From assembly GCF_009649785.1 (NCBI RefSeq), contig NZ_WJOK01000023.1, forward strand, positions 1 to 64,000: 64,000 bases of DNA, written 5' to 3'. The stretch's first letter is position 1, and each line of letters begins with the position of its first letter. Shown here one piece after another: positions 40,134-58,160 of the stretch. Both the position numbers and the translations under genes were made by a program. The stretch comes from Agrobacterium tumefaciens. GTDB lineage: Bacteria > Pseudomonadota > Alphaproteobacteria > Rhizobiales > Rhizobiaceae. A model generated the notes under the pieces. That model saw nothing but the letters and a program-made list of their open reading frames with translations. It made no database searches and was not told the origin of the DNA.

Positions 40134-40847
40134 TTAAAGTTGCCTTCGTGCGGTGCCGATCGCGATAACAGGGCCGGTTGCCTGACCAGTTGGTGATCCA
40201 CCGAAGGGTTCGACGCTGATCGCGAAGGTCGTGCCTTCCGAAATGTTGTTACGCATATCCGCCGGGATAATGAGATCGCCATTCGTTCCGGGCTGGAAGA
40301 CACCGAGCGAGCGGGTCTTGCCGCCATCCATCACAAGCCACAGTTCCAGTGATTTCTCATCGGCCTTGCCGGTCGCAACCGGTATAATGTGCATCCTGCC
40401 GGTCTCTGCATCATAGGATGCAAGCAGGTTGACCTGACTGTCCGTTGTCGAAAGTTCTGCTACCAGCGGAGCTGTGCCCTGCCATTTTTCGGGAAATGCG
40501 GCGTAAACGATCGCTGCCACGGCAGCCGCGCTCGTGGCGACAGATATCCATCGCCAGAAGGATGCGGAACTCCACAGGCTGCCATTGGCGTTGCTGGTCT
40601 TGCTGCCGAACAGGCGTTCTTCAATGCGGGCGAGAATGGCCGCACTCGGCGCCTGTTCTTCGTAATCCACGTTGAAGTCTGAAAATTCGCTTTCCCAACG
40701 GTGGACCAGCTGCGCGAAGACCCTGTCGTCCTGCATGCGCCGCTCGACCTCACGACGCTTTTCAAACGGCAGCACGCCGAGCACATATTCGCCAGCGAGG
40801 ATTTCGTCGCGCGAATGCATGCCCTCGCTGTTTTCGCTCGTTGTCAT
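40134..40847 (-). CDS. Anti-sigma factor, RskA (anti-sigma-K) family
   Basis: 237-aa membrane protein: cytoplasmic N-terminal helix bundle (about 10-60, with AGEYVLGVLPFEKRREVERRMQ) that clamps the sigma factor, one membrane span at about 95-118, and a periplasmic RskA beta domain ending with the SVEPFGGSPTG motif typical of the family. No zinc-binding HxxxCxxC motif, so it is not a ChrR-type sensor. ATG 40847 overlaps the sigma-factor stop by four bases, so both are made in step. Signal release probably involves proteolysis of the periplasmic domain. Confidence 0.9.
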   Translation of the reverse strand: MTTSENSEGMHSRDEILAGEYVLGVLPFEKRREVERRMQDDRVFAQLVHRWESEFSDFNVDYEEQAPSAAILARIEERLFGSKTSNANGSLWSSASFWRWISVATSAAAVAAIVYAAFPEKWQGTAPLVAELSTTDSQVNLLASYDAETGRMHIIPVATGKADEKSLELWLVMDGGKTRSLGVFQPGTNGDLIIPADMRNNISEGTTFAISVEPFGGSPTGQATGPVIAIGTARRQL

Positions 40848-41386
40848 CGCTGCATGCACTCTCTGAGTTTGAGAAGGCTTCGCCGCAACCAGGTTCTGAC
40901 CGTGTTGAGTGGCACCCGCAATTCCTTGGCGAGTTCGATATAGCTCAGCCCTTCGATATAGGCCCGACGCACCGCCTGGGCATGAACGGTTTCAAGTTCC
41001 TGCATGCAATTGTCGATCCTGCGACCCTCATCGGCCAGAACGACCTGCTGCTCCGGATTGCGGATGCTGTCATCGGCAAGGTCATAGGCTTCGTCAATGT
41101 CGTCGCCCACGGGTTTGCGCGCCCTGATCGTATCGATCGCATGGTTGCGGGCGATTGCGGCGAGCCACGTAGACGGTGTGCCGGCGCTTGCTGCAAATGT
41201 GAGGGCTCGTTGCCAGATCTTGATATAGACTTCCTGAAGCGCTTCTTCGGCTTCGGTCCTGTCACGCAGGATTTTCAGGCAGATGGCATAAAGCTTCGGG
41301 CTGGTGGCTTGATAGAGGGAAACGAATGCCGAGCGATCGCCCATGCCGACGCGGTTTATGAGCGTTGCTATCTCTGTACCCTGCAT
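40844..41386 (-). CDS. ECF sigma factor (SigK/RpoE-like)
   Basis: 180-aa extracytoplasmic-function sigma factor with region 2 (ATSPKLYAICLKILRDRTEAEEALQEVYIKIWQ, residues 25-60) and region 4 (GLSYIELAKELRVPLNTVRTWL, about 148-175); no region 3. ATG 41386 has AAGGGA upstream, and the frame is open far upstream without a better start. It is paired with an RskA-type anti-sigma. The repeated promoter word GAAAC-N17-CGTA ahead of the lipid operons and the lipocalin operon is the best candidate for its target. Confidence 0.92.
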   Translation of the reverse strand: MQGTEIATLINRVGMGDRSAFVSLYQATSPKLYAICLKILRDRTEAEEALQEVYIKIWQRALTFAASAGTPSTWLAAIARNHAIDTIRARKPVGDDIDEAYDLADDSIRNPEQQVVLADEGRRIDNCMQELETVHAQAVRRAYIEGLSYIELAKELRVPLNTVRTWLRRSLLKLRECMQR

Positions 41387-41468
41387 TCGAACATCCCTTC
41401 TTGCGCCTCCTATATAGGGTTGTCCTTTGTGGGAAGGCAAGGCATGCGCGAAATGAAGTTCACGTCTT

Positions 41469-41489
41469 CCCGGCCAAAAATTGGCCGGG
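41469..41489 (-). terminator. Hairpin between the lipid operon and the sigma-factor gene
   Basis: Perfect 9-bp stem CCCGGCCAA (41469-41477) / TTGGCCGGG (41481-41489), loop AAA, 28 bases after the DUF2177 stop on the minus strand. There is no U tract, so it may only reduce read-through into the sigma gene. Confidence 0.55.
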
Positions 41490-41517
41490 TGGAAGCAGGC
41501 GGCAGGGATGGTCGCTG

Positions 41518-41949
41518 TCATAACACACCTGCCGGATTTTGCAGTGGACCGACCAGCCGTACGGTGACGAGGTAACCGATGATGGCAGCGGCTGCGGACA
41601 CGAAAGTGCCCCACAGAAGATCTGCGATGGTCAATGTCGTGGACCAGCTTTTCAACGTTGCCTGATTGGTGAGATCATATGTGGCATAGGCCATGAAGCC
41701 GACGGCTGCACCATAAACCAACGCGGTCGTCCACTGGCCTGATATGAGGGCCGGACGAACCGCAAGAAAGGTCAGTCCTGCCGCGTAGATGAGATAAAAG
41801 ATGATCGCCGGGGCCAGCCGGAAGTTCTCAGCCAGAAGATCGCCGATCGCCGGGCGATAAAGCCGCGACGCCATGGTGCTTAGCCAGATGAAGTCGATCA
41901 CCAGAAAGGCGATGAGGGTGAAGAAGTAGGCTGAGATATAGGTCTTCAT
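41518..41949 (-). CDS. DUF2177 inner-membrane protein
   Basis: 143-aa protein with four membrane spans (about 5-27, 45-67, 73-95 and 105-130). The DUF2177 signatures IDFIWLSTMASRLYRP and AYATYDLTNQATL are clear. Function unknown; the family recurs beside Cfa-type methyltransferase and DUF1365 genes in light- or singlet-oxygen-response loci. Start at 41949 follows AAGGACAAACCG, which gives the short cytoplasmic N-terminus expected. Confidence 0.88.
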   Translation of the reverse strand: MKTYISAYFFTLIAFLVIDFIWLSTMASRLYRPAIGDLLAENFRLAPAIIFYLIYAAGLTFLAVRPALISGQWTTALVYGAAVGFMAYATYDLTNQATLKSWSTTLTIADLLWGTFVSAAAAIIGYLVTVRLVGPLQNPAGVL

Positions 41950-41969
41950 CGGTTTGTCCTTTCCAGAGT

Positions 41970-42347
41970 CTAGTTGATGCGGGCCCAGGTAATGCCCTTG
42001 CACAGGAGACCAGCGACGATGCAGCCCTTGGTGGTCATGCTGTTGCCATCAACCGTGACTGTTATCTTGTAGGATTTGTCGCGTTGCGGATCGAAGGCGG
42101 TGCCCGAATAGACGCCTGTTTCATCTGGCTTTATGGTCATGATCAGCCGGTCACCGGTCTTTTCCTTGGGCGTGCCCGGTTTGATCCAGGTATTGGTGGC
42201 GCATATATTGTCGCCGCAGGGTGCGATCAGCACTTTCGCGTTGCCGTCGCCGCGCGCCCAGTTTCCGTCGATGTCGGCTGCTCCGGCACCAGAGGCCGCA
42301 AGCATCGGACCCAGGACAGATGCGATTATCAAGGGATTGATTTTCAT
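41970..42347 (-). CDS. Exported DUF2147-like protein
   Basis: 125-aa protein with a signal peptide (1-23, cut after Gly-Ala-Gly-Ala), then the DUF2147 lipocalin-like core: DIDGNWARGDGNAKVLIAPC, ICATNTWIKPG, and paired cysteines (CGDNIC and CIVAGLLC) that could form two disulfides. Function unknown; relatives are periplasmic. It lies 20 bases before DUF2177 and 28 bases after the Cfa-type gene, so it belongs to the same ECF-driven operon. Confidence 0.82.
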   Translation of the reverse strand: MKINPLIIASVLGPMLAASGAGAADIDGNWARGDGNAKVLIAPCGDNICATNTWIKPGTPKEKTGDRLIMTIKPDETGVYSGTAFDPQRDKSYKITVTVDGNSMTTKGCIVAGLLCKGITWARIN

Positions 42348-42375
42348 CGTCTTTCTCCGCAGTTGTTGCCCCGCC

Positions 42376-43608
42376 TTATTTGTGCTCGATCGTGTAGAAG
42401 CCAACATTGATGGTGCCCTCGGTAAAGCCGGCTTCGCAGTAGCAAAGGTAATAATCCCAGAGCCGCCTGAAGCGGTCATCGAAACCCAGCAGCGAGATTG
42501 TCTGCCAGCGCGCATGGAAACGCTGCCGCCATTCCGCCAGCGTGCGGGCATAGGATTGGCCGAAAAGCTCGGTATCGGTGAGGCTGAGGCCGGCTCTGCC
42601 GATTGCTCTTTCAAGGGCTTCGTCAGATGGCAGGAAGCCGCCCGGAAAGATGTATTTCTGGATGAAGTCAGCGTTTCGCCGGTAATTATCGAACCGGGCA
42701 GGTTCAATGGAGATGATTTGCAGCACCGCGCGCCCGCCGGGTTTCAGGCAGCGTTTCAGTGTTTCGAAATAGCTCGGCCAATAGGCCTCACCGACCGCTT
42801 CGAACATCTCCACGGAAACGATGCGGTCGAACTTGCCTTCGACATCGCGGTAGTCCTCGAGCCTGAGATCGATATGCTCAGCCTTGTCGGTTTTCTCCGC
42901 TGCCGCCTTTGCCCAATTCAACTGAGATGGCGAAAGGGTGAGGCCGGTAACGTTGGCATCCGCCTGGGTCGCGAGGTGGATTGCAAGCGCGCCCCAGCCG
43001 CAGCCAATCTCCAATACGCTCTCACCGCCGTTCAATTGCAGTTTGTCGACGATGCGGTTGAGTTTTTTGAGTTGGGCCGCCTCAAGCGTTGGCGTCGTAT
43101 CGTCGAAAATCGCCGACGAATAGAGCATCGAGGAATCGAGCCATTGCCGGTAGAATTCGTTGCCGAGATCGTAATGGGCCTCGATGTTACGGCGGCTGCC
43201 GCGCTTTGTATTGGCGTTCAGCCGGTGGCCAAGGCGATTGATGAGGCGCATGGGCAGGCTACCGCGCGTCGATCCCCCGAAAGCGTCGTTGTTCTGTGCC
43301 GCAAAACGGATCAGGGCGGTCAGATCCGGTGTGGACCAGTCGTCTTCGATGTAACCCTCGGCAAAACCGATGTCGCCATTGAGGATGAGCCGACGTAGCG
43401 CGCGCCAGCGATGGAGAACAAGCGTCGCCTCGGTGCCCTCATGTTCCCCGGATTTCTCAATCACGCCGCCACCGGGAAGCATGACGCGCAGTCTGCCTTT
43501 GGAGACGTTGTTCAAGAGCTTGGCCATGAGCCAGCCTTCGGGACCGGTGCGTTGCCGCATCTGCGTGTTTTCCAGCGATAGTTCGTTGAGATTGTCAAAC
43601 GGGGTCAT
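42376..43608 (-). CDS. Cfa-family SAM-dependent fatty-acid methyltransferase (copy 1)
   Basis: 410-aa enzyme of the cyclopropane/unsaturated-fatty-acid methyltransferase family. An N-terminal lipid-binding domain (1-130) precedes the SAM domain with motif I VLEIGCGWGALAIHLA near residue 200 and the YRDVEGKFDRIVSVEMFEAVGEAYW and PGGRAVLQIISI segments. It transfers a methyl to double bonds of membrane phospholipid acyl chains, giving cyclopropane, methylated or furan-precursor chains. It overlaps DUF1365 by 14 bases. Distinct from the second Cfa-type enzyme at 46761 in length and sequence. Confidence 0.9.
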   Translation of the reverse strand: MTPFDNLNELSLENTQMRQRTGPEGWLMAKLLNNVSKGRLRVMLPGGGVIEKSGEHEGTEATLVLHRWRALRRLILNGDIGFAEGYIEDDWSTPDLTALIRFAAQNNDAFGGSTRGSLPMRLINRLGHRLNANTKRGSRRNIEAHYDLGNEFYRQWLDSSMLYSSAIFDDTTPTLEAAQLKKLNRIVDKLQLNGGESVLEIGCGWGALAIHLATQADANVTGLTLSPSQLNWAKAAAEKTDKAEHIDLRLEDYRDVEGKFDRIVSVEMFEAVGEAYWPSYFETLKRCLKPGGRAVLQIISIEPARFDNYRRNADFIQKYIFPGGFLPSDEALERAIGRAGLSLTDTELFGQSYARTLAEWRQRFHARWQTISLLGFDDRFRRLWDYYLCYCEAGFTEGTINVGFYTIEHK

Positions 43609-44413
43609 GAAGTTTGGCCTCGATTTGCGATGGTGATGGGTGAATGAAGGAGACAGGGGCAGACGGTGGACGCGGTCGTTTTCTCAACCGCACACCCTTG
43701 AGCCATATTTTAAGTGCTTCCCAATGGATGCCGGCAACAACCTTGAGGGTAAGAAAGGGGATGGTGACAAACGCCTTCAGCAGCGCGCCATCGGTCAGCT
43801 CGACGCGCCGCGCCAGATGCCTTGCAGTCAGGACTGGCCCCTCGTCGTCAAATGTATCGATAACGATCTTCAGCTTGTCGCCGGGTGGAATGACCCGGAA
43901 TACATAACGGAGATCCATGTCCATGAAGGGCGAGACATAGAAGGCCTTGTCGCAGCGCTGGACGATCTCGGCCGCACCTTCGGTCTCCACCGGGATAAGG
44001 TAGGAATGCCGCTCGCCGAACGTGTTGTCGACTTCCCAGAGAATGGCTTTGAGAGACCCGTTCCGGCCGTGGCAGAAAAACACGCTGAGTGGATTGAAGG
44101 CCCAGCCAAGGATGCGCGGCATGGTGAGCAGACGGATCGGACCACCATCGACGGTCATGCCTGCGGCCGTCATGGCGTTTTCGATCTGGTTGCGCAATTC
44201 CATCTTGCTCCCGTCGCCGCGGTCCCGGCGGTGAAAGGAAAACAGGTTGAAACGATCCACGGAGAACAGCCGCAGCTTACGGTCAAGCGCATCAAGTTCA
44301 TCAAGGTCGAGAAGCAGCGAGTAAATGCGATAGGCGAGCCGGTGCGCTTTCGGCTTGAAGCGCGCATGCATGACATGTCCGGGAAAAAGGGCGGAGGAGA
44401 AATGAGACGTCAT
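43595..44413 (-). CDS. DUF1365 protein
   Basis: 272-aa protein of the DUF1365 family, with SALFPGHVMHARFKPKAHRLAYRIYSLLLDLDEL at the start, the LLTMPRILGWAFNPLSVFFC motif in the centre, and FYVSPFMDMDLRYVFRV. Function not established; nearly always encoded between a flavin amine-oxidase-like protein and a Cfa-type methyltransferase, as here, with overlaps on both sides. In Rhodobacter such genes belong to the singlet-oxygen regulon. Confidence 0.9.
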   Translation of the reverse strand: MTSHFSSALFPGHVMHARFKPKAHRLAYRIYSLLLDLDELDALDRKLRLFSVDRFNLFSFHRRDRGDGSKMELRNQIENAMTAAGMTVDGGPIRLLTMPRILGWAFNPLSVFFCHGRNGSLKAILWEVDNTFGERHSYLIPVETEGAAEIVQRCDKAFYVSPFMDMDLRYVFRVIPPGDKLKIVIDTFDDEGPVLTARHLARRVELTDGALLKAFVTIPFLTLKVVAGIHWEALKIWLKGVRLRKRPRPPSAPVSFIHPSPSQIEAKLHDPV

Positions 44414-45783
44414 GGGATCGCCTCAACGAGTTTGATCGTTCTTTTCCGCGAAGCCAAATTCAGACGGACGATCCGGCCGCTATCATCGGTAACCTTCCAG
44501 GGCCTCGACAGGCCGCCCAGATCCTCAGCGACGGCAAGCCCTGCCTGAATGCCGTCTTCATGAAAACCCGAGCCAAAATAGGCGCCGCAGAACCAGGTGT
44601 TTCTCAAACCCTGCAAGGCCCAAAGTTCCTGCCTCATCTGCTCGGTGCCGGCATCGAAAACAGGATGGTGGTAGGTTTCCTCGGTGATGATTTTTCCCTT
44701 TTCCGGTTCGCGCGTCGGGTTCAGCGTTACGAAGGTGTCAGGGATTTCGCCCAGAGGCTGAAGCTTGTTCATCCAGTAGGTGATGCTCGGCTGCCCCGTT
44801 TCAATGCGTGTATCGGCCACATAGTTCCAGCTTGACCAGGCGGCGCGCCTGCGGGGCATGAAACTGCTGTCCGTGTGCAGTACCGCCCTGTTTTTCGTAT
44901 AGCCAAACGCGCCGAGAATGCGCCGTTCGGCTTGCGTCGCGTCCGTCAGCATCTCCAGCGCCTGATCTGCGTGTGTGGCAATCACCACATCGTCGAAACG
45001 TTCGAATTCGCCGTTAGTGTTGGCGATCTCGACCCCGTCCGCCAGGCGGTGGATGCGTGTCACGGGTGTCGAGAGCCGAATGCGATCGACGAATGGCGCA
45101 GTGAGGCGTTTCACATACTCCCGACTGCCGCCGACAACGGTGCGCCAGACGGGCCGGTTGCGCAGCAACAGCAGGCCATGATTGCTGCAGAACTTCACGA
45201 AATGAGCTGCCGGGTAACGGCCGACTTCCATGGCCGGGGTAGACCATATGGCTGCTGCCATCGGGTAAAGATGATCGTTGCGAAAGGCGTCGCCATAGTT
45301 GTTTTGCGAAAGATACTCATCGAGCGACATATCGCCCATCATCGGCAGATCGCGTGGGGCATTGCGATAAAAGCGCAAGAGGTCGGCAAGCATTGCCCAG
45401 AAGCGCGGTCTGACGGCATTTCTCTTCTGCGCCAAAAGGCCAAAGCCCGAGCCGCCGGAATATTCGAAACCGCCATCATCCAGCGAAACGGCAAAGGACA
45501 TGTTGGAGGCTGCGGTCGTCACTCCCAGCGTTTTGAAAAGTGCCGTCAGATTGGGATACGTCACCTCATTATAGACGATGAAACCCGTATCGACAGACAC
45601 CGCCTCCTGTTCAGTTTTGAACGTCACGGTGTTGCTGTGGCCGCCGACGCGGTCCGCAGCCTCGAAAACCGTGACATCATGCCGTTTCGACAAAAGCCAG
45701 GCCGCAGACAGACCGGAAATGCCTGTTCCGATCACGGCGATGTTTCGCCGGCTGTCTTTTCTTTTGGCTTCGGTATCGAACAT
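44410..45783 (-). CDS. FAD-dependent amine-oxidase-like oxidoreductase
   Basis: 457-aa flavoprotein. The ADP-binding dinucleotide fold IAVIGTGISGLSAAWLLSKRHDVTVFEA is at residues 15-42; FAD-binding continues with ADRVGGHSNTV, and the C-terminal FAD motif GSGFHEDGIQAGLAVAEDL near 420. It resembles the flavoprotein that works with Cfa-type methyltransferases in making branched or furan fatty acids, so desaturation of a methylated acyl chain is a reasonable guess. First gene of the leftward ECF operon, with GAGGAACC as ribosome site. Confidence 0.88.
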   Translation of the reverse strand: MFDTEAKRKDSRRNIAVIGTGISGLSAAWLLSKRHDVTVFEAADRVGGHSNTVTFKTEQEAVSVDTGFIVYNEVTYPNLTALFKTLGVTTAASNMSFAVSLDDGGFEYSGGSGFGLLAQKRNAVRPRFWAMLADLLRFYRNAPRDLPMMGDMSLDEYLSQNNYGDAFRNDHLYPMAAAIWSTPAMEVGRYPAAHFVKFCSNHGLLLLRNRPVWRTVVGGSREYVKRLTAPFVDRIRLSTPVTRIHRLADGVEIANTNGEFERFDDVVIATHADQALEMLTDATQAERRILGAFGYTKNRAVLHTDSSFMPRRRAAWSSWNYVADTRIETGQPSITYWMNKLQPLGEIPDTFVTLNPTREPEKGKIITEETYHHPVFDAGTEQMRQELWALQGLRNTWFCGAYFGSGFHEDGIQAGLAVAEDLGGLSRPWKVTDDSGRIVRLNLASRKRTIKLVEAIP

Positions 45784-45831
45784 GGTTCCTCGCTATTGCA
45801 TTCACAATTCAGTTTTACGGCCTGCGACAGA

Positions 45832-45857
45832 TACGAAGGAGCGGATCGATAAGTTTC
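45832..45857 (-). promoter_or_regulatory. ECF promoter of the leftward lipid operon
   Basis: Minus strand GAAAC (45857-45853), 17 bases, CGTA (45835-45832), lying 48 bases before the oxidoreductase ATG. Same spacing and bases as the promoters at 45896 and 54647. Presumed target of the ECF sigma factor encoded at 40844-41386. Confidence 0.75.
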
Positions 45858-45895
45858 AGCGGCGCGCAAATTTTTCAGAATTTTGTCAGGCGCTT

Positions 45896-45921
45896 GAAAC
45901 TCTTTTGCCGTCTCGCCCGTA
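45896..45921 (+). promoter_or_regulatory. ECF promoter of the rightward lipid operon
   Basis: Plus strand GAAAC (45896-45900), 17 bases, CGTA (45918-45921), 48 bases before ATG 45970. Mirrors the promoter at 45832-45857 in the same divergent region. Confidence 0.75.
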
Positions 45922-45969
45922 GTTGACACTGAAAACTTGGTCTGAAGTCCTTCGAATACAGTGAGCGGA

Positions 45970-46764
45970 ATGGTGATGATGTCTGTTGTGGTGGCCCTTG
46001 CCGTGCTGATGTCGCTTCTGATGGCGGCAGCCTGGGCGTTGCAGCGTTACACAGGATCGAGTGGCTGGATCGACACCGTCTGGTCTGCGAGTGTCGGGCT
46101 CGGCGGCGTGGTTGCCGTCTTGTTTTCCGATGGAGATCTCTGGCGCCGGGGAGCGGTTCTATTTCTTGTACTGGTGTGGTCGCTTCGGCTCGCGGGACAC
46201 ATCGGCATGCGGACGAGGGGAGGTGGCGAAGATCCACGTTACGCGAAGCTTATAGAAGAATGGGGCAGCAATGCCTCGTTGCGGCTTTTCGCCTTTCTCC
46301 AGATTCAGGCCGTTGCCGCCTTTGTGCTTGTTCTCGCCGTCTATCTTGCCGCCAGCAATCCTCTGCCATTTCCAAGCATTATCGATATGATAGCGTTGAT
46401 CATCGCGGCTGGTGCGCTTGTCGGAGAAGCGACCTCCGATGCACAGCTTTCACAGTTCAGAAAAACCCCGGAGGCCAAAACCGGCGTCTGCGAGACTGGT
46501 CTGTGGCGTTACTCGCGTCATCCCAACTACTTTTTCGAGTGGCTTTTCTGGTGCGGCTTTCCGTTGTTGGCCATCCATGCGCAGCCGTGGTCATGGCTGT
46601 CGCTTGCTGCGCCAGCCATGATGTACTGGCTCCTCGTCCACGTCTCCGGCATTCCCCCGCTCGAAGAACACATGCTGAAATCACGCGGAGAGAAATTCCG
46701 CGCCCTGCAAAACCGCGTCAACGCCTTCTTTCCGGGGCCACGCAAGAATGAGGACACGCCATGA
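45970..46764 (+). CDS. DUF1295 integral membrane protein
   Basis: 264-aa membrane protein with about seven spans. The C-terminal motif GLWRYSRHPNYFFEWLFWCGF and the downstream EEHMLKSRGEKFRAL place it in DUF1295, which is distantly related to steroid 5-alpha-reductase and isoprenylcysteine methyltransferase membrane enzymes that bind NADPH or SAM. Likely acts on lipids with its coupled Cfa-type partner; the stop overlaps that gene's start (ATGA). GTG 45961 is an alternative start. Confidence 0.9.
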   Translation: MVMMSVVVALAVLMSLLMAAAWALQRYTGSSGWIDTVWSASVGLGGVVAVLFSDGDLWRRGAVLFLVLVWSLRLAGHIGMRTRGGGEDPRYAKLIEEWGSNASLRLFAFLQIQAVAAFVLVLAVYLAASNPLPFPSIIDMIALIIAAGALVGEATSDAQLSQFRKTPEAKTGVCETGLWRYSRHPNYFFEWLFWCGFPLLAIHAQPWSWLSLAAPAMMYWLLVHVSGIPPLEEHMLKSRGEKFRALQNRVNAFFPGPRKNEDTP

Positions 46765-47786
46765 ACATGCTCGCATTCGCCATCAATGCTGCCGAACGCG
46801 CACCGCTGAGTGACAATATGACGCTTGCCGGCATCGACATGCTCTGCGCACGCACTAAACGGCGACTTGCCGGCGTTCCGGCGGCGGAAGAAAACGCTTT
46901 TGTGACTGATATGGCGAAATTTCCCGTCGCCACACACACCGACGAGGCGAACAGGCAGCACTACGAGGTGCCGGCTGAATTCTTTGCAATCGCCCTTGGC
47001 GCGCAAAGAAAATATTCCTGCTGCTTTTATCCCAATGCTCAGACAACGCTGGATGAGGCTGAAACATTGGCGCTGGAAGAGACTGTTTCCCATGCCCGAT
47101 TGCAGGACGGGATGAATATTCTCGAACTCGGCTGTGGCTGGGGTTCGCTCTCCCTTTATATGGCCGGCCGGTTTCCCAATGCGCGGATTACGTCCGTTTC
47201 AAATTCGGCTTCGCAGCGCGAATATATAATCGAACGTGCAAATGAGCGTGGGCTGTCGAACCTCTCGGTGGTGACGGCCGACATGAATGATTTCACTACT
47301 GACGAGCGTTTCGACCGTGTCGTATCGGTGGAAATGTTCGAGCACATGTCGAACTGGCAGGCATTGTTCGAGCGCGTCCGCTCGTGGCTGACGCCCGAGG
47401 GCAAGTTTTTCCTCCACGTCTTCAATCACCGGGATCGATCCTATCGTTTCGATCATGGCAACCGGGCAGACTGGATCGCGCAGCATTTCTTCACCGGCGG
47501 CATCATGCCTGCCTTCGATCTTCCTCACCGTTTCCCGGCGCTTTTCACCGTGGAACAGGAGTGGCGCTGGTCGGGATCGCATTATCGCCGAACGGCCCTC
47601 GACTGGCTTGGAAATTTCGACCGGGAGATCGACCGTATCCGACCGATTCTGCAGCGGGTCTATGGCAACGATGCGCGCTTGTGGGAACGTCGTTGGAGAC
47701 TGTTCTTCCTCGCGACGGCAGGTCTTTTCGGGCACGAAGACGGTAAGGTCTGGGGCGTTGGACACTACCTCATGGCGCGCGTCTAG
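46761..47786 (+). CDS. Cfa-family SAM-dependent methyltransferase (copy 2)
   Basis: 341-aa methyltransferase. Motif I is NILELGCGWGSLSLYMAGRFP near residue 120, followed by SNSASQREYI and DRVVSVEMFEHMSNW. It lacks most of the N-terminal lipid domain of the 410-aa copy on the other strand and has an EVPAEFFAIALGAQRKYSCCFY segment typical of the Cfa core. It is translationally coupled to DUF1295. Two different Cfa-type enzymes under one promoter type suggest successive or alternative lipid methylations. Confidence 0.9.
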   Translation: MNMLAFAINAAERAPLSDNMTLAGIDMLCARTKRRLAGVPAAEENAFVTDMAKFPVATHTDEANRQHYEVPAEFFAIALGAQRKYSCCFYPNAQTTLDEAETLALEETVSHARLQDGMNILELGCGWGSLSLYMAGRFPNARITSVSNSASQREYIIERANERGLSNLSVVTADMNDFTTDERFDRVVSVEMFEHMSNWQALFERVRSWLTPEGKFFLHVFNHRDRSYRFDHGNRADWIAQHFFTGGIMPAFDLPHRFPALFTVEQEWRWSGSHYRRTALDWLGNFDREIDRIRPILQRVYGNDARLWERRWRLFFLATAGLFGHEDGKVWGVGHYLMARV

Positions 47787-49400: not shown

Positions 49401-49550
49401 CCGGACGTTTTGCGACAGGCTGAGGCATCCGGATCGAATTCAGTGGCGTGCCTGCCGGCAGATCCGGGCGTTGAACAATGTACCATTCTTCGGGTAGAGC
49501 TATCTTGCCCGTCAGGATCGCAACCGATCCGCATCATTTCGTTGGTTCGC

Positions 49551-50546
49551 ATGATCCCAGTAGCACTACCCTCCGTCGAAACGCTGCTTTTGCTTGCCTT
49601 CCTTCTTGCCACGACACTGGTCTGGGGTATCTGGACAGTGGTGTTGGTTGCACGATACGCAGGAGGCCGCTGGGCGCGCCCGATGATGCTGCCCTATGGT
49701 CTGGCGACCGCCATTGCAATTTTTACACTTTGGCAGTTCGGTAATTTCTATCTCCAGATGCGTGCCTACGACAGGGAAATGGCGTCTAGCTATCGCCCGG
49801 AGCTTGGGGAGCCGGTGCGCCTTGGCCAGATCGACATGCCCAAAGGCACGAAACTTGAACTGGCCGTGGCCGATACCAGGGAATCATTCAACCGCGCGGT
49901 CTTCCCCCATCCCGTGTGGGTCGCGAATGTCGATGCCGTCGAGATCGCCCGCTACATCGCGATAAAAACCAACGGAAATTATGAGACCGTCGGCTTTGTT
50001 CCAGAGACGATGCGGGTGACGGGCACAGGCGTGACCCTGCAGAGCGGCTGGCGCTGCGATGCGGCACAACCGGTTGAGTTCGACCTGAAGGCTGACGGGG
50101 ATGTATCCGCTTTCAGCCGATGTGTCCTTGCCGACGGGAATATCGTCGACGGCATTGTCTTGCAGAAGGGCACGTTTCTGCGTGCCTCCACCGGCAATGT
50201 CTATACCGACGGTTTCATCGATTCCGACAGGTGGGTTCTCGACACGCCCACGGGCCAGGCTATCCGCATTGATGATTTCGCTCTTGAGGATGTCACGCTC
50301 GCCCTTGATGGCGAAAGAAAACTCTATGAAATCCGAAGCGCGGTTTTGTCGAAGGAAGCAACGGCGGGCGCGCTCCACTTCGCAGCCGGCAGTGGAATTC
50401 GCCTCAATCCCCGGCACTTCCGGACTGATTATCCCGGTGCATGGTTGATAACACCATCTCCTGCGTCCACCGGTTCTGAACCGGTGTCGCATCGGTCAAG
50501 CGTGCTGAACAGAGGCGGAAAGCTTCTGGCCACCCTTTCCGACTAG
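49551..50546 (+). CDS. Membrane protein of unknown function
   Basis: 331 aa from ATG 49551. Two membrane spans at about 8-35 and 46-68, then a large, mostly beta, probably periplasmic domain with no motif that I recognise (KGTKLELAVADTRESFNRAVFPHPV is near its start; two cysteines in WRCDAAQ and SRCVLADG could form a disulfide). The long in-frame region upstream to 49410 has no ribosome site. It is not similar to any family I can name. It lies between the EAL gene and an acetyltransferase. Confidence 0.6.
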   Translation: MIPVALPSVETLLLLAFLLATTLVWGIWTVVLVARYAGGRWARPMMLPYGLATAIAIFTLWQFGNFYLQMRAYDREMASSYRPELGEPVRLGQIDMPKGTKLELAVADTRESFNRAVFPHPVWVANVDAVEIARYIAIKTNGNYETVGFVPETMRVTGTGVTLQSGWRCDAAQPVEFDLKADGDVSAFSRCVLADGNIVDGIVLQKGTFLRASTGNVYTDGFIDSDRWVLDTPTGQAIRIDDFALEDVTLALDGERKLYEIRSAVLSKEATAGALHFAAGSGIRLNPRHFRTDYPGAWLITPSPASTGSEPVSHRSSVLNRGGKLLATLSD

Positions 50547-50648
50547 CGCATTGGTGGACCAGATACTCTGAACGACCTCGATGGAGGTCTCTCTTGCGAT
50601 CAGGTGCCCGCGACCCCAGATATCGCGCATTATTGAAAGTGCGCATAA

Positions 50649-51209
50649 ATGAACCCTGAGAACTACCTACCGATAAAGACCGACCGGCTGATCCTTCGTA
50701 AATTCCAGGCCGCTGATCTCGCATCATACGCCGATTACCACACGCGCGATGACGTCTACCGTTTCCTCTATGCCGCACCGCCTTCGGATGATGCGGTGAA
50801 AACGCAATTCGCAGCGCTGCTCGAGGCTCCGTTCGAAGAGGACGGCGATACGTTGCGACTTGCCGTTACGCGCAGTGACGATGACACGTTGATCGGCGAA
50901 GTCCTGCTTAAAATTGCGAGCAAGGCAGCTTTGCAGGCGGAAGTCGGTTATGTCTTCAATCCTGATTTCTCAGGTAAGGGATATGCGACGGAAGCCGTCC
51001 GGGCCATGATAAGCCTCGGCTTCGAGACGCTCGGATATCACCGGATTTTCGCGCGGCTGGATGCCCTGAACCACGGATCGATCGGTGTTGTTGAACGCCT
51101 TGGCCTGCGGAAAGAAGCGCATTTGATCGAGAATGACCGGTTTGGCGGCACCTGGGGGGATGAATTCATCTATGCCACCCTGAAGAGGGAGTGGGCGTCT
51201 AGCCCATGA
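50649..51209 (+). CDS. RimJ/RimL-type GNAT acetyltransferase
   Basis: 186-aa N-acetyltransferase with the family N-terminus ETDRLILRKF-like TDRLILRKFQAADL, acetyl-CoA loop NPDFSGKGYATEAVRAMI near residues 103-120 and the C-terminal NHGSIGVVERLGLRKEAHL motif. Targets of the branch are ribosomal protein N-termini or small amines; not predictable here. Ends 44 bases before the photolyase gene and may be co-transcribed with it. Confidence 0.87.
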   Translation: MNPENYLPIKTDRLILRKFQAADLASYADYHTRDDVYRFLYAAPPSDDAVKTQFAALLEAPFEEDGDTLRLAVTRSDDDTLIGEVLLKIASKAALQAEVGYVFNPDFSGKGYATEAVRAMISLGFETLGYHRIFARLDALNHGSIGVVERLGLRKEAHLIENDRFGGTWGDEFIYATLKREWASSP

Positions 51210-51253
51210 TCTTGCGCAGGTGATGATTATGTCGGGTTTGAAGGAAATTGTCG

Positions 51254-52777
51254 GTGTCTCAACTGGTCTTGATCCTCGGCGATCAATTATCTTTCTCCCT
51301 ATCTTCGCTGGATGGTGTCGACAAGACGCGCGACACGATCCTGCTTTGCGAGGTAATGGCGGAGGCTACCTATGTCGGCCATCACAAAAAGAAGATCGCC
51401 TTCATCTTTTCCGCCATGCGCCACTTCGCCGAGGAACTGCGTGGCGAAGGATACCGGGTTCGCTACACGCGGATTGATGATCGCGACAATGCGGGCTCCT
51501 TCTCCGGCGAGGTGCAGCGGGCGTTAAACGACCTGACCCCTTCCAGGATTTGCGTCACCGAGGCTGGAGAATGGCGCGTCAAGTCAGAGATCGAGCGCTT
51601 CGCCAGTGCCTTCAACATCGAGGTCGATATCCGCCCTGATCGGCGCTTTCTTGCCACCCACGAGGAGTTCGAGCGCTGGGCGGCCGGGCGCAAAAGCCTG
51701 ACGATGGAATATTTCTACCGGGAAATGCGTCGCAAGACTGGCCTGTTGATGAATGGCGAAGAGCCGGTCGGTGGACGCTGGAATTTTGACTCGGAAAACC
51801 GCAGCCCCGCCAAGCCGGACCTGCTGAGGCCAAGACACCCTGTCTTCGCACCGGACAGGATAACAAGGGATGTCATCGACACCGTCGAGCGGCTGTTTCC
51901 CGACAATTTCGGCAAGCTTGAGAACTTTGGTTTCGCCGTCACCCGCGCCGATGCCGAGCGGGCGCTCAGTGCCTTCATAAACGATTTCCTGATGAATTTC
52001 GGCGCCACGCAAGATGCCATGCTGCAGGATGACCCGTATCTCAACCACTCGCTTCTGTCTTTTTACATCAATTGCGGGCTGCTGGACGCGCTGGAGGTCT
52101 GCAGGGCGGCGGAGCGCGCCTACTACGAGGGCGCGGCACCGCTCAATGCCGTCGAGGGTTTCATTCGCCAGATCATCGGCTGGCGGGAATATATGCGTGG
52201 CATCTACTGGTTTGCGGGGCCGGACTATGTCGACAGCAATTTCTTCCAAAACGACAGGCCGCTGCCGGGCTTTTACTGGACGGGCAAAACCCACATGAAC
52301 TGCATGGCGACCGTAATTACGGAAACCATCGAAAATGCCTATGCTCACCATATCCAGCGCCTGATGATCACGGGAAATTTTGCCCTTCTCGCCGGCATTG
52401 ATCCGAAGGCCGTTCATCAATGGTATCTGGAGGTCTATGCGGATGCCTATGAATGGGTTGAGCTGCCGAATGTGATCGGCATGAGCCAGTTCGCCGATGG
52501 CGGCTTTCTCGGGACAAAGCCCTATGCCGCAAGTGGCAACTACATCAATCGCATGTCGGACTATTGCAGTAGTTGCCGCTATGATCCCAAGGAGCGTCTC
52601 GGTGACAAGGCCTGTCCATTCAACGCGCTATACTGGGATTTTCTGGCCCGCAACCGTGAAAGGCTGAAATCCAACCATCGGCTGGCGCAGCCCTATGCCA
52701 CATGGTACCGGATGAGCGAAGACGTCCGCCATGATATCAGGGCAAAGGCGGCTCTGTTTTTGAACCGCCTGAGCTAA
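51254..52777 (+). CDS. phrB: Iron-sulfur bacterial (6-4) photolyase / cryptochrome PhrB
   Basis: 507 aa from GTG 51254 (AAGGAA seven bases upstream). Member of the FeS-BCP family that repairs (6-4) photoproducts with blue light using FAD, with DMRL as antenna and a 4Fe-4S cluster. The cluster cysteines fall at C350, C438, C441 and C454, and the adjoining histidines H365-H366 are present, the same numbering as I recall for Agrobacterium fabrum PhrB. Residues 1-130 form the antenna domain and 220-500 the helical FAD domain. It strongly suggests the genus. Functionally fits the light/singlet-oxygen regulon on both sides, although no ECF promoter word was found before it. Confidence 0.96.
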   Translation: MSQLVLILGDQLSFSLSSLDGVDKTRDTILLCEVMAEATYVGHHKKKIAFIFSAMRHFAEELRGEGYRVRYTRIDDRDNAGSFSGEVQRALNDLTPSRICVTEAGEWRVKSEIERFASAFNIEVDIRPDRRFLATHEEFERWAAGRKSLTMEYFYREMRRKTGLLMNGEEPVGGRWNFDSENRSPAKPDLLRPRHPVFAPDRITRDVIDTVERLFPDNFGKLENFGFAVTRADAERALSAFINDFLMNFGATQDAMLQDDPYLNHSLLSFYINCGLLDALEVCRAAERAYYEGAAPLNAVEGFIRQIIGWREYMRGIYWFAGPDYVDSNFFQNDRPLPGFYWTGKTHMNCMATVITETIENAYAHHIQRLMITGNFALLAGIDPKAVHQWYLEVYADAYEWVELPNVIGMSQFADGGFLGTKPYAASGNYINRMSDYCSSCRYDPKERLGDKACPFNALYWDFLARNRERLKSNHRLAQPYATWYRMSEDVRHDIRAKAALFLNRLS

Positions 52778-52841
52778 CGCGGCCCTTTCTCTGCTTTTGC
52801 CGACGGCGGGATACGCGATCAGAGCTGTCCCTGCGAATGTC

Positions 52842-52941
52842 TCAGTCATGACGCGGCTCGTAAACCCAGCTCCGCGTGGTGCCGACAGCGCCGCCGATCC
52901 ATGCCGCAATGGTGCCAATGATAAGAGCGACGAAGGCGAGC
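52842..52941 (-). pseudogene. Decayed C-terminal fragment of a small membrane protein
   Basis: On the minus strand about 33 codons read as a hydrophobic helix with GxxxA-type pattern (ALIIGTIAAWIGGAVG) and a polar end, stopping at 52842. An in-frame stop lies just before it, and no start codon fits. The layout resembles the last span of PhnA-like or similar small membrane proteins. Evidence is limited to composition and the helix pattern. Confidence 0.3.
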
Positions 52942-52995
52942 TATCGGAAACGACGTGAAGCCTGCCGCGTTTCTCAGCTTACTTTAAACTATCAG

Positions 52996-53409
52996 TTACC
53001 AGCCGTAGCTGAATGTCAGGCCGCTGCCGTTGTCTCCGTTCTGCTCCACGTTGGTTTCGGTGTTCCGCCCATACTGGAAAATGCCATAGGCATTGTTATT
53101 GCCGTTTTGCTGCAGCGTTGCGGAATGGCCGTTGCCCCGCTGCCGGATAAAGCCGAGATTGCCGCGACCGTTCTGGGCGATGCCTGCCGCATTTCCCCGG
53201 CCCAATTGCCGGATGTCTGCGTCTTTCAGATCGCGATAAAGCGAGTAGGCGCGCAGACCGGTTGAGAACAGATCCCCATCCCCGGAATTGCCGGGCGCGA
53301 GGTCAAAGGAAATGCGGCCACCGGCATGGGCGGGAGCCGTAAATCCGAGCGGCGCAAGGCCTCCGACAAGCAGAGTAACGGTGAGAAGTTTCAACACGTT
53401 GCGGGTCAT
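52996..53409 (-). CDS. Curlin-repeat protein (CsgB/CsgA-like)
   Basis: 137-aa exported amyloid subunit. Signal peptide 1-29, then a 40-residue linker and about four curlin repeats of the pattern Q-x-G-x-x-N-x-A-x-I-x-Q (DIRQLGRGNAAGIAQNGRGN, then two to three more), ending in a tyrosine/tryptophan. By its fewer repeats and longer linker it may be the nucleator (CsgB-like), but that is a guess. GGAGATCAGA precedes ATG 53409. It forms, with the other two, a leftward curli set. Confidence 0.82.
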   Translation of the reverse strand: MTRNVLKLLTVTLLVGGLAPLGFTAPAHAGGRISFDLAPGNSGDGDLFSTGLRAYSLYRDLKDADIRQLGRGNAAGIAQNGRGNLGFIRQRGNGHSATLQQNGNNNAYGIFQYGRNTETNVEQNGDNGSGLTFSYGW

Positions 53410-53577
53410 TCTGATCTCCATTCTGTCAGTGCCTTTGCCGATGATCCACTCTCGCATCCTGCAACTGAACCCGAACGGAATTGCCCATTCACATGTCGTT
53501 CAGTCGCTGCACGAGGATCAAAGAAAAGGGCGCTCAACTGGCGCCCTCTCTGGTGGAAATGTATAGTTGAAGTCAGC

Positions 53578-53976
53578 CTAGTCGCCGCCAACCTGCTTCG
53601 TGCAGCTGAAGCGCCTGCCATCGATTTCGAGATCCAGCACTGCCTTGTACTGCGCTCCCTTCGCGCCAAGCGTTACCGAACTCAGAAGTTGCGAACGCCC
53701 GGCAGCGGCATCAAAGCCGCCGCCCTGGTTGATGACGGAACTCCCGCTGCCTCCTGAATTTTCGACGTGAAAGGCATAGGTACCTCCAGCACCGGTGTTG
53801 CCCTTTGCGAAGGCCTCCAGCCTGACCATGCCCGCCTGTGGTGTTGCCTTGATCTCGCAAAGCTTGCCTTCGCTCAGGTCATTTGCGGTCGACATGGCTG
53901 CAATGGCGCCGAAGGGAAGCAGTGCAACGGCAAGGATAGCCGCCAGGCGGCGTGGATGTGTGACGCTATGGGGCAT
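53578..53976 (-). CDS. csgH: Curli assembly inhibitor/chaperone CsgH-like protein
   Basis: 132-aa exported protein. Signal peptide residues 1-27; mature part with the CsgH pattern LCEIKATPQAGMVRLEAFA..GTYAFHVENSGGSGSSVINQGGGFD and a single C-terminal cysteine paired with the N-terminal one (LCEI and SCTKQV). In alphaproteobacteria CsgH is a periplasmic beta-sandwich that blocks premature amyloid formation by CsgA. Its place between two curlin genes supports the call. AAGGAGAC before the start. Confidence 0.85.
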   Translation of the reverse strand: MPHSVTHPRRLAAILAVALLPFGAIAAMSTANDLSEGKLCEIKATPQAGMVRLEAFAKGNTGAGGTYAFHVENSGGSGSSVINQGGGFDAAAGRSQLLSSVTLGAKGAQYKAVLDLEIDGRRFSCTKQVGGD

Positions 53977-54041
53977 GGCTAGTCTCCTTGATGATCTGTT
54001 GACTTGATCTCGACCAGTTGCACGTCAAGGCCTGTGGCGGC

Positions 54042-54479
54042 TTAAGGGCAGGCCTGCACGAAGGCCGCGACATTGTCATTACCGCCCTGGTTCACATTGG
54101 CGCTGCAGCCACGGCCAACCTGAACACCAGCCGCGATGTTGCCGTTGCCGTCCTGGGTCAGGATGGTGGTGTGGTTGGAGCCGAACTGGCCGATGCCCGC
54201 CACGTTGCGGCTGCCGTTCTGATAGGTGGAGCCGTAATTGTCATGCCCCTCCTGACCGACAGCCGAAAGGTTGTGACGACCATATTGATGGCCGACGATC
54301 CGGTTATAGCCGCCGTTCTGGTAGGTGCGGATCCGGTTGCCATAACCTTCCTGTGCACCACCGGCAGAGTTCGACCAGCCATATTGTTCGATGCGCACAT
54401 CGTTGGCCATGACGGGGGCCGTGGCGGTGAAGCCAACGAGAGCGGAGAGTGCAATTGCAACGAAAGACGTACGGATCAT
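54042..54479 (-). CDS. csgA: Curlin-repeat major subunit (CsgA-like)
   Basis: 145-aa exported amyloid subunit. Signal peptide 1-24 (cut after Val-Met-Ala), then five to six curlin repeats (QYGWSNSAGGAQEGYGN, TYQNGGYNRIVGHQYGRHN, and so on) with the regularly spaced Gln, Gly and Asn of CsgA. A cysteine pair at the very end is unusual for CsgA. GAGGAGACAGTC precedes ATG 54479. Likely the first gene of a csgA-csgH-csgB transcript; the csgG/csgE/csgF export genes are not in the window. Confidence 0.87.
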   Translation of the reverse strand: MIRTSFVAIALSALVGFTATAPVMANDVRIEQYGWSNSAGGAQEGYGNRIRTYQNGGYNRIVGHQYGRHNLSAVGQEGHDNYGSTYQNGSRNVAGIGQFGSNHTTILTQDGNGNIAAGVQVGRGCSANVNQGGNDNVAAFVQACP

Positions 54480-54646
54480 GACTGTCTCCTCAGGCGGATA
54501 AGACCGCGGTTGAACGTCTTTGTTGTAGACGGTCCCGTTGGAACGGAAGCTGAAGAGATTATTCAGTCGTGGTTCATTGGCGGGGTATGGTCCCAGCGTC
54601 GCAACAATGGTGACGAACATGATGACTAAAGTTTTCTTGGCATGAT

Positions 54647-54672
54647 GAAACCAAATTGGCTCGCCTTTCGTA
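54647..54672 (+). promoter_or_regulatory. ECF promoter of the membrane protein-lipocalin-SDR operon
   Basis: Plus strand GAAAC (54647-54651), 17 bases, CGTA (54669-54672), exactly the word and spacing of the two promoters at 45832-45921. It lies 52 bases before ATG 54725, which supports that start and places this operon in the same regulon. Confidence 0.7.
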
Positions 54673-54724
54673 CATGGCTTGCGCCTTCAATGTTCAGGCG
54701 GAAAGGGAGACGAATCTGGGTCCG

Positions 54725-55288
54725 ATGGAGCTTCAAAGCCGCGCTAGCCAGCCCGCAAATGCAGGGTCTGCTGCAAGAGATGATCTGACACGAGCAACCA
54801 TAACCGTTGCCTGGGTCATCATCCTCAACAAGCCATTTTATCCGCTTTACGTGTGGTATCTGGTCGATGACGGAGCCATGGCATCGCTTGTCACCCTATT
54901 GTCGGTGCCATTCTTTCTCGCGATACCATTCCTGGCGAAAAAATCCCCGTTGGCCGCGCGCCTCGCTCTCCCTTTGGTGGGAACAATCGACACGCTGTTT
55001 GAAACCAAAATATTCGGCCATGCTTCTGGCACCGAATTTTTCTTCGCAGCCTGCATCATGCTTGCAGCCATGTCGTTCCGCGCAGACGAGAAGCTCTGGC
55101 AATATGCGACGGCAATCCTCGTCTTCATCGCTTTCTTTTTCTCGCGGACGTTTCTGGGCGCGCCGCTGCAATCCTGGTCGGCAGATGATCTTGCAACGCT
55201 TCTCAATCTGAATGCGTTCTCTGCCGCCAGCCTCATGGTCTTTATCGCCCTTAGATATGCCGGCATTTCACGGCGAACCGAAATCTGA
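54725..55288 (+). CDS. Polytopic membrane protein of unknown function
   Basis: 187-aa inner-membrane protein with about five to six spans (first near 28-47). It has no signal peptide; the polar N-terminus of about 20 residues faces the cytoplasm. No family recognised, although small membrane proteins of this kind occur beside lipocalin genes in light/singlet-oxygen loci. Start chosen from the ECF promoter upstream rather than the in-frame codon at 54656. Followed after 31 bases by the lipocalin gene. Confidence 0.65.
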   Translation: MELQSRASQPANAGSAARDDLTRATITVAWVIILNKPFYPLYVWYLVDDGAMASLVTLLSVPFFLAIPFLAKKSPLAARLALPLVGTIDTLFETKIFGHASGTEFFFAACIMLAAMSFRADEKLWQYATAILVFIAFFFSRTFLGAPLQSWSADDLATLLNLNAFSAASLMVFIALRYAGISRRTEI

Positions 55289-55319
55289 ACAAGAGCCGTG
55301 CCATCGACAGGAGGAGTTT

Positions 55320-55850
55320 ATGCTTAGACAATGTAACCGCGTGATTGGCGCCCTGACATTTTCGCTGTTTCTGTTTGCCGGTTCTGCGGTTTCCGCAGCC
55401 CCCAAACCGGTTGCCGTGGGTCTCGATCATTACCGCGGTACCTGGCTTGAAATCGGCCGTACACCCATGTTGCTTACAGACGGATGTGTTGCAGGATATT
55501 CCACCTATCGGCAGGGAGCATCGACAGATGAAGTGCTGATAGAAGATGGCTGTCGAGCAGGAAATCCGAATGGTCGCCTCAAGACGGTGAACGGCGTCGG
55601 CAAGATCGAGGATTTCGGATCAACCAATGCGAAGATGCGCGTTCGCTACCCTCTTTTCATCACATTCAATTATTGGGTTTTCTACAAATCGCCTGATAAG
55701 TCCTGGTTCATCAGCGCCAACCCGTCGACCGGCGATGTGTGGATCTACGCCCGCAACATCCCGTCCAAAACGAAGCTCAATAAAATGATCATGAAAGCAC
55801 GTGAGCTTGGCTACGACGTCAGCAAGCTCGAGTTTCCGGTCCAGAAATAA
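55320..55850 (+). CDS. Bacterial lipocalin (Blc-like)
   Basis: 176-aa exported lipocalin. Signal peptide 1-25 (no lipobox), then the lipocalin GxW motif in YRGTWLEIGRTP near residue 40, the CVAGYSTYR and VRYPLFITFNYWVFY strands, and a C-terminal region with the family's YDVSKLEF motif. It probably binds fatty acids or lysophospholipids in the periplasm, fitting the lipid-modification genes that share its promoter type. AGGAGGAG precedes the ATG. Confidence 0.87.
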   Translation: MLRQCNRVIGALTFSLFLFAGSAVSAAPKPVAVGLDHYRGTWLEIGRTPMLLTDGCVAGYSTYRQGASTDEVLIEDGCRAGNPNGRLKTVNGVGKIEDFGSTNAKMRVRYPLFITFNYWVFYKSPDKSWFISANPSTGDVWIYARNIPSKTKLNKMIMKARELGYDVSKLEFPVQK

Positions 55851-55869
55851 CAGCTGATGGAGCGCATGG

Positions 55870-56571
55870 ATGATGCAGTCGCTTGAAAATGGCTACAGGG
55901 CGATCGTCTTGGGCGCATCCGGCGGCATTGGTGGAGCCCTGTTGTCGTACTTCGAGGCCGACCCTCGTTGCGCGTTCGCCTTGCCGCTCTCGCGAAGCGT
56001 CGATGGTCTCGACATAACGAACGAAACCAGAGTGCGCGAAGTTGCCGCCCGTCTGGAGGCTCAGCGCGGCTCCTTCGACCTGATATTCAATGCAACCGGT
56101 GCCTTGACGGTCGATGGTGCCGGTCCCGAAAAGTCGATAAGGGCGATCGACGAAGTTCACATGACGAGGCAGTTTGCGGTCAATGCCGTAGGCCCCGCTT
56201 TGCTGCTCAAGTATTTCACCCCGCTTCTGCGCAGAGACAGGCGAACCATTTTCGCCTCCCTGTCCGCGCGTGTTGGCTCGATTGGCGACAACAGATTGGG
56301 CGGATGGATCTCCTACAGGGCGTCCAAGGCCGCTCACAATCAGATCATCCGAACCGCAGCCATCGAAATCGCCCGCACAAACCCACAGGCCATCATCGTG
56401 GCGCTTCATCCCGGAACAGTCGAAACAGAGCTGTCCCAGCAATTTTCGAAGGGCAAAGACTTGTTCACCCCGCAGCAGTCTGCCGCGCGACTGATGGAAA
56501 CAATCAATGATCTCACACCGGCACAAACAGGGCAGTTTTTTGCCTATGACGGTTCAAGGATCGAATGGTGA
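55870..56571 (+). CDS. Short-chain dehydrogenase/reductase
   Basis: 233-aa NAD(P)-dependent SDR. The nucleotide motif is at the start (VLGASGGIGGALLSYF, residues 13-28), the NATGALT motif near 75, and the catalytic YRASK (Tyr-Lys) near 157. It lacks the C-terminal extension of larger SDRs; C-factor-like small SDRs of this length occur in light-inducible operons with lipocalin and photolyase genes. Last gene of the ECF operon, 19 bases after the lipocalin stop. Confidence 0.88.
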   Translation: MMQSLENGYRAIVLGASGGIGGALLSYFEADPRCAFALPLSRSVDGLDITNETRVREVAARLEAQRGSFDLIFNATGALTVDGAGPEKSIRAIDEVHMTRQFAVNAVGPALLLKYFTPLLRRDRRTIFASLSARVGSIGDNRLGGWISYRASKAAHNQIIRTAAIEIARTNPQAIIVALHPGTVETELSQQFSKGKDLFTPQQSAARLMETINDLTPAQTGQFFAYDGSRIEW

Positions 56572-58066: not shown

Positions 58067-58078
58067 GGCGTTCTCATA

Positions 58079-58095: not shown

Positions 58096-58160
58096 GATTG
58101 ACGATATATATGTGGTGCAGCATCTTCAAGGCCATTCGCGTTGAACTGAGGAGAATGACA

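Follow-up and report, generated by a model that had tools for sequence, protein, structure and literature searches.

A predicted SigK–RskA regulon for furan-lipid genes in Agrobacterium, and a promoter word kept inside sigK in its relatives

A 64,000-nucleotide (nt) stretch of Agrobacterium tumefaciens (positions 1 to 64,000 of contig NZ_WJOK01000023.1, assembly GCF_009649785.1; hereafter the window) carries genes of the furan fatty acid enzyme families together with an extracytoplasmic function (ECF) sigma factor and an RskA-type anti-sigma factor, and raises the question of which regulator such genes obey in this genus. An initial annotation of the window had proposed a three-promoter ECF regulon, with RskA in ChrR's place and a photolyase in its neighbourhood; the regulon and its RskA are supported by the present analysis, whereas membership of the photolyase is not. 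It appears highly probable that a SigK-like ECF sigma factor reads the word GAAAC-N17-CGT[A/C], drives three operons of the window and probably also a fasciclin gene elsewhere in the genome, and yields furan fatty acids. What the sequences show is the motif and how it is conserved, the linkage of the operons in relatives, the sigma factor's kinship to SigK and a gene tree with one swap of regulator; use of the promoters, the product and the signal are what we infer. SigK–RskA, furan fatty acids and ChrR regulons are each already known, and the open-licence papers listed in our searches show neither the Agrobacterium combination of SigK with furan genes nor the order-wide intragenic site described below; in open-licence PMC literature no paper was found that joins DUF1365 with RskA or reports an intragenic SigK promoter. 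A common crop-associated genus would join the bacteria linking furan-lipid genes to SigK–RskA, and the signal of this pair, which is described as obscure for mycobacteria (PMC9861118), could be tested in a relative that grows fast.

The regulator and its predicted promoter word

The sigma factor (40844–41386, minus strand) finds its best match among solved structures in Mycobacterium tuberculosis SigK (4nqw, E 6.5e-28), followed by Rhodobacter sphaeroides RpoE (1.9e-18). Its residues C127 and C177 align with the SigK cysteines and lie 50 residues apart, like residues 133 and 183 of the M. tuberculosis protein, in which the pair is important (PMC7509140). The anti-sigma factor (40134–40859, minus strand), assigned to RskA by PF10099 (77.6 bits, cut-off 29.4), has no cysteine at all and one hydrophobic stretch; a search with it against PDB sequences returned nothing up to E 10. 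Judged by kinship, the window regulator is a SigK–RskA pair, and the closest known system is the mycobacterial one, which the initial annotation had missed. The likeness to M. tuberculosis SigK–RskA (ECF18/19) encompasses the best solved match, both cysteines, the RskA partner, fasciclin targets (mpt70/mpt83) and autoregulation from an upstream gene, sigK being transcribed there from the promoter of Rv0449c (PMC7509140). Unlike M. tuberculosis, the alphaproteobacterial window has three operons, and DUF2147, DUF2177, lipocalin and short-chain dehydrogenase (SDR) genes in addition. We take Rv0446c–Rv0449c to encode DUF1295, Cfa, DUF1365 and a flavin adenine dinucleotide (FAD) enzyme, and assume that the mycobacterial SigK promoter word differs from GAAAC-N17-CGTA. 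A further SigK/RskA-like pair, rcc00699–rcc00698 of Rhodobacter capsulatus, is induced by photooxidative stress; it differs in its position near the photosynthesis cluster, and the source gives no RSP_1090/1091 homologues for that species (PMC7074977). Three other family assignments of the window sigma factor were rejected: Sinorhizobium meliloti ECF26 (RpoE1/3/4/6) has GGAAT-like promoters (PMC6180224), and Bradyrhizobium EcfQ/EcfF (PMC3420878) and Brucella ECF16 (PMC8315932) belong to other groups.

The word GAAAC-N17-CGTA lies exactly where the initial annotation had placed it, at 45832–45857 (minus strand), 45896–45921 (plus strand) and 54647–54672 (plus strand). These are the sole exact matches in the window; shuffled windows hold a mean of 0.22 matches, and 0 of 100 shuffles reach three. 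The claimed distance of about 48–52 bases to the first start is borne out by measurement, the −10 word lying 48 nt before the FAD oxidoreductase, 48 nt before DUF1295 (provided that ATG 45970 is its start) and 52 nt before ATG 54725 of a membrane protein gene. Genome-wide, a search that the annotation had suggested as a check, the bare word is common, with 27 exact matches in 5.67 Mb versus 46 for the reversed control. Simple gene calling by codon bias assigns 22 of the 27 to predicted genes and the other 5 to intergenic DNA; a same-strand gene follows directly only at the three window sites. The random scatter which the annotation had named as counter-evidence is seen for the bare word and not for the word in promoter position. 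From the density of the word in this genome, the 8.8 kb concerned, a stretch picked for holding the sites, would be expected to contain 0.042 (P(≥3) = 1.2e-5). If CGTC is allowed, one extra window match appears, at 63096, and 3 of 100 shuffles reach four. A refined word, TGAAACT-N16-CGT[AC], framed only after relatives had been viewed, has 6 genome matches, whereas its reversed control has 0. Two of the six are window sites, one is the promoter of a fasciclin gene, and three fall within coding sequence or where it begins; the window site that reads GAAACC, the third, is not covered by this word. Over 80 named loci, kept of 358, a spacing of 17 gives 122 matches and every other spacing from 10 to 24 gives 1–17, intragenic matches counted.

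The three sites precede operons whose gene names in the initial annotation are confirmed by Pfam. On the minus strand, the site at 45832–45857 is followed by a UfaD-like FAD-dependent oxidoreductase (44410–45783; PF01593/PF13450), a UfaO-like DUF1365 protein (43595–44413; PF07103, 272 bits), a UfaM-like Cfa/CMAS methyltransferase (42376–43608; PF02353, 284 bits), a DUF2147 protein (41970–42353; PF09917) and a DUF2177 membrane protein (41518–41955; PF09945), the last two with predicted starts, and the ECF/RskA pair ends the operon as had been described. The divergent site at 45896–45921 precedes, on the plus strand, a DUF1295 membrane protein (45961–46764, ATG 45970 being also possible; PF06966) and a second Cfa-type methyltransferase (46761–47786; PF02353). 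The third operon, also on the plus strand, consists of a membrane protein with weak likeness to MASE7 (54725–55288; PF20967, 26.9 bits), a gene that adjoins DUF1295-Cfa in relatives, a lipocalin (55212–55850; PF08212) and an SDR (55870–56571; PF00106). Methylated furan fatty acids are known products of UfaM (a methylase), UfaD (a desaturase with an NAD/FAD domain) and UfaO, a DUF1365 protein (PMC7380195). All three families are present in the window, in the gene order D-O-M, and the cluster probably makes protective furan fatty acids, its product and substrate being predicted from family and gene order. The enzyme families are those of the R. sphaeroides RpoE–ChrR furan regulon (PMC7380195); that regulon is under ChrR, whereas the window set would be under SigK with a cysteine-free RskA.

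Conservation was followed in 39 Agrobacterium genomes, all of which hold a sigma factor relative of some degree, and in all 33 places besides the window whose sigma factor is at least 54% identical. This comparison of related genomes, likewise suggested at the outset, recovers the operon with both divergent sites in 18 of the 33 places, that is, in 18/18 operon-type relatives; the remaining 15 stretches carry sigK-rskA without the furan-lipid operon. Across these 18 relatives and the window (19 loci), spacer identity is 0.76 for the 45832–45857 site and 0.80 for the 45896–45921 site; the nine motif bases match in 19/19 because the search pattern fixes them, and the result is that no locus fails. 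Outside Agrobacterium, the cluster occurs in 7 of the 80 named loci (L161, L163, L167, L168, L169, L171 and L172), six of which have both divergent sites and L161 one of the two. Five of these loci (L161, L163, L167, L171 and L172) have membrane protein and lipocalin genes downstream of DUF1295-Cfa on the same strand, which suggests that the third operon was split off from the second. The detached unit, in which the membrane gene precedes the lipocalin, is found in 6 genomes of the genus, with the window's own genome and species among them, and has the motif before it in 6/6.

Standalone sigK-rskA loci point to a further target. In at least 9 of 15 such loci viewed, rskA is followed by the motif and then by a secreted fasciclin gene, an arrangement that resembles the mpt83-sigK-rskA cassette described in PMC7509140. 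Across the genus, at least 22 of 28 fasciclin genes have GAAAC-N17-CGT[AC] upstream (16 CGTA, 6 CGTC). The fasciclin gene of the window's genome, on another contig and not beside sigK, is preceded by GAAAC-N17-CGTC and is likely a fourth regulon member. MPT70/83-like fasciclin genes of Mycobacterium kansasii are induced by light, and the authors suggest that they may be under SigK–RskA (PMC9861118). At L224, from 9308 onward, the gene after the post-rskA motif resembles, by eye, a methionine sulfoxide reductase.

In the scheme that we propose, the SigK-like sigma factor would be held by membrane-bound, cysteine-free RskA until an extracytoplasmic signal, perhaps light or singlet oxygen, releases this hold and SigK turns on the gene set. 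It would drive ufaD-ufaO-ufaM-DUF2147-DUF2177-sigK-rskA, DUF1295-cfa and membrane protein-lipocalin-SDR, and probably the distant fasciclin gene; because the first of these operons ends with sigK-rskA, sigma and anti-sigma factor would be autoactivated together. As its output, we expect membrane furan fatty acids together with envelope lipid handling, directed against oxidative damage.

ChrR and RskA as probable regulators of the same gene set

DUF1365 is present in 35 of the 39 genus genomes, in 19 within the RskA operon and in 16 as a form 44–50% identical; 4 genomes are without it. ChrR exceeds the cut-off in exactly the 16 genomes with the latter form and lies 2.8–2.9 kb from it on the same contig in 16/16. 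None of the 39 genomes links the set to both regulators; a further eight genomes contain weaker, partial ChrR matches that stay under the cut-off. The genus thus offers a natural comparison, the same gene set being linked to ChrR or to RskA and never to both in a genome. In ten ChrR-type loci, FAD-DUF1365-Cfa and ECF-ChrR-DUF2177 are arranged divergently, and TGATCC-N16-CGTA precedes the ECF gene in 9 of them. In one ChrR-type Agrobacterium (L295, 789–3166), DUF1295, Cfa and membrane protein genes, identified by eye, lie near a second SigK-like locus.

A wider sample of 397 genomes of the order was searched for DUF1365 and ChrR, the window's genome being left out. Among the matches listed, 149 genomes have DUF1365, 83 of these also have ChrR, and 73 of the 83 have the two within 8 kb; of the same 149, 37 have a listed SigK, in 0 cases within 20 kb. 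The closest DUF1365 relatives among these matches, L345–L348, share the gene order of the window as far as they are covered. In L346 and L347 an ECF-ChrR pair stands at the end of the furan gene order, with one extra gene between in L346; L345 is cut by a contig end, and no ECF-ChrR pair is seen in L348. GAAACC-N17 sites, weighed as possible SigK sites, stand ahead of DUF1295 in each of the four loci and, in L348, also ahead of the FAD enzyme; the four genomes are not among the SigK matches listed at E 1e-35, and other promoter-like words lie close to the sites. Both GAAACC-N17-CGT[AC] and GAACC-N16-CGTA-like words were noted before furan genes of L345–L348, and the ECF-ChrR pairs of L346 and L347 have a TGATCC promoter.

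A tree of 53 FAD enzymes separates, at a well-supported branch, 24 RskA-linked sequences from 27 ChrR-linked ones and two of unknown linkage, and requires one change of regulator label. The tree was built with a quick method and midpoint-rooted, a root that nests the RskA group among ChrR-linked sequences; a sequence counts as ChrR-linked if its stretch has a ChrR match at E 1e-5, which is weak in L362 and L364. The tree supports one swap between ChrR and RskA, presumably from ChrR to RskA. In Agrobacterium, the ChrR-type genes form a lineage of their own, so the genus holds two gene sets and not one rewired in place. The proposal that a cysteine-free RskA-type anti-sigma factor has come to stand in ChrR's place agrees with this tree and with the 19 RskA-linked and 16 ChrR-bearing genomes.

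Several points weigh against assigning the three sites, the fasciclin gene and the product to the window's own SigK. The fasciclin promoter word of the genome ends in CGTC, and the post-rskA sites of L224 and L161 precede no fasciclin gene. The UfaD, UfaO and UfaM assignments reflect family and gene order, not likeness to proven proteins. Lipocalin loci of G014, G023, G024 and G035 have neither the exact motif nor a match to the membrane gene, and 13 of the 39 genomes have no lipocalin match. Moreover, the genome encodes a second SigK-like ECF factor (G000:C20:55706), 34% identical, which has its own anti-sigma factor and lies beside a gene that we take to be DUF4394-like; in the C58-like locus L291 a fasciclin gene is near this second pair. 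The sites could therefore be shared with, or be promoters of, this factor instead of the window's sigma factor, yet we regard the latter alternative as improbable: four loci of the second factor (L289, L291, L294 and L295) have no GAAAC-N16-18-CGT[AC] before it, whereas in 137 of 142 distinct loci the window-type sigK either directly follows the furan operon or the word, or contains the word itself. At L289 (5000–7239, on G000:C20), the second factor has an RskA-like anti-sigma factor, by eye, alongside and no GAAAC-N17-CGT[AC] at its own start. Still less credible is an ordinary ECF11–ChrR-style light or singlet-oxygen regulon with the RskA pair as a bystander. Such a regulon would be in keeping with the 16 of 39 Agrobacterium genomes that hold the same gene set within 3 kb of ChrR, and with the 73 order genomes above, but it is largely refuted by the absence of ChrR, the genome of the window having no match to TIGR02451; nor does TGATCC-N16-CGTA occur in the window, where one mismatch allowed gives 2 matches versus 3.2 expected.

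A promoter word within sigK

Relatives of the window carry GAAAC-N17-CGT inside sigK itself. The survey covered 154 sigK loci, 142 of them distinct by codons, and a locus was counted as having an external SigK site if furan genes stand immediately ahead of sigK or if GAAAC-N17-CGT[AC] lies no more than 600 nt away. The intragenic word falls within codons 30–38 in 105 of the 142 loci. It is present in 104 of the 109 distinct sigK genes with no external site and missing from 32 of the 33 with one, L201 alone having both; the five with neither are L204 (one base off), L226, L230, L305 and L342. In the furan-operon type, the sigma factor gene has different codons at this place, and in the window the corresponding segment (41272–41299, minus strand) is degenerate (CCG AAG CTT ... 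AAA ATC). Of 40 order-sample loci chosen from 111 places among the matches listed, mostly outside the window's family and 41–62% identical, 38 have the word. Beyond the order it is patchy, with 8 of 29 loci in a class sample, one of which (L377) is the L344 genome again.

The word is under constraint at the DNA level. Third-base changes were counted for the 109 loci that lack an external site, chosen regardless of the intragenic site to avoid circularity, on a tree from which codons 29–41 had been excluded. Codons show a median of 29 changes (173 codons); three Trp codons aside, the lowest values are those of codons 31 (1), 38 (2) and 30 (4), exactly the wobble positions that the motif covers, and codons 51 and 163 (8 each) come next. 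At codon 30, the first two bases changed 14 times versus 4 for the third. Given Lys and Arg at these places, the codon usage of the same genes predicts the motif in a fraction of about 0.013. Selection on a promoter word inside coding sequence is thus readable from synonymous bases over some 100 loci. The exclusion between external and intragenic site is not statistically secured: on the tree, intragenic presence changes 6 times and the external site 5 times, with 2 independent pairs on well-supported branches and 5 on all.

The intragenic word has the sequence, orientation and spacing of SigK's own promoter word. Since rskA lies downstream of it in the same orientation, the simplest role for the word would be to start an rskA transcript; most likely it makes extra anti-sigma factor as negative feedback. 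A parallel is the sigma-dependent promoter PrshA inside sigH of Corynebacterium glutamicum, which makes the anti-sigma factor only and is read by its authors as keeping this in excess (PMC3489674). PrshA concerns another ECF group and one species, whereas the sigK site is kept synonymously across the order and is nearly exclusive with an external site; such a feature, a promoter word in a sigma gene with selection on the DNA, is present in relatives and absent in the window. The word might instead be a binding or pause site where SigK–RNA polymerase blocks transcription of sigK, a roadblock that would also fit the rarity of loci with both this word and an external promoter. For Streptomyces coelicolor sigma-E, an ECF factor is reported to repress directly (PMC10771440). 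The full −35 and −10 elements at exact spacing, together with the proven PrshA precedent, speak against such autorepression, and we consider it unlikely, though less so than the rivals weighed above. An internal ribosome-binding start after the site was rejected, no conserved in-frame start being seen by eye.

With a promoter for rskA as the preferred role, we lean towards the following history. In Hyphomicrobiales, and patchily beyond, sigK would hold an internal promoter for extra anti-sigma factor at a cost in codon freedom; lineages in which sigK-rskA came to lie behind an autoactivated furan-lipid operon would have lost it, exchanging negative feedback for co-activation of sigma and anti-sigma factor at the change from ChrR to SigK. 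The site would thus predict that two versions of a single regulator are wired with opposite feedback. In several Agrobacterium species, the sigK frame is open and alike upstream of its ATG (41386–41518 in the window, between DUF2177 and sigK), over residues 1–57 of the sigma factor query.

Photolyase and neighbouring genes

The photolyase, phrB in the initial annotation, belongs to the DPRP family and does lie between the operons. Its membership in the regulon is not supported: no exact motif precedes it, and in 10/10 stretches of other species (L241–L250) it is not beside the lipocalin, the photolyase–lipocalin neighbourhood recurring only in L058, of the same species. At L182, in Allorhizobium borbori, a photolyase-SDR pair follows rskA by about 2.6 kb, a possible photolyase–SigK link in one species. 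Between the photolyase and the third promoter of the window (52996–54620), curlin-repeat genes and a CsgH gene lie on the opposite strand. Beyond the third operon, at 56885–59261, two adjoining divergent genes look, by eye, like citrate synthase genes, and one of them seems to begin with a MerR-like segment.

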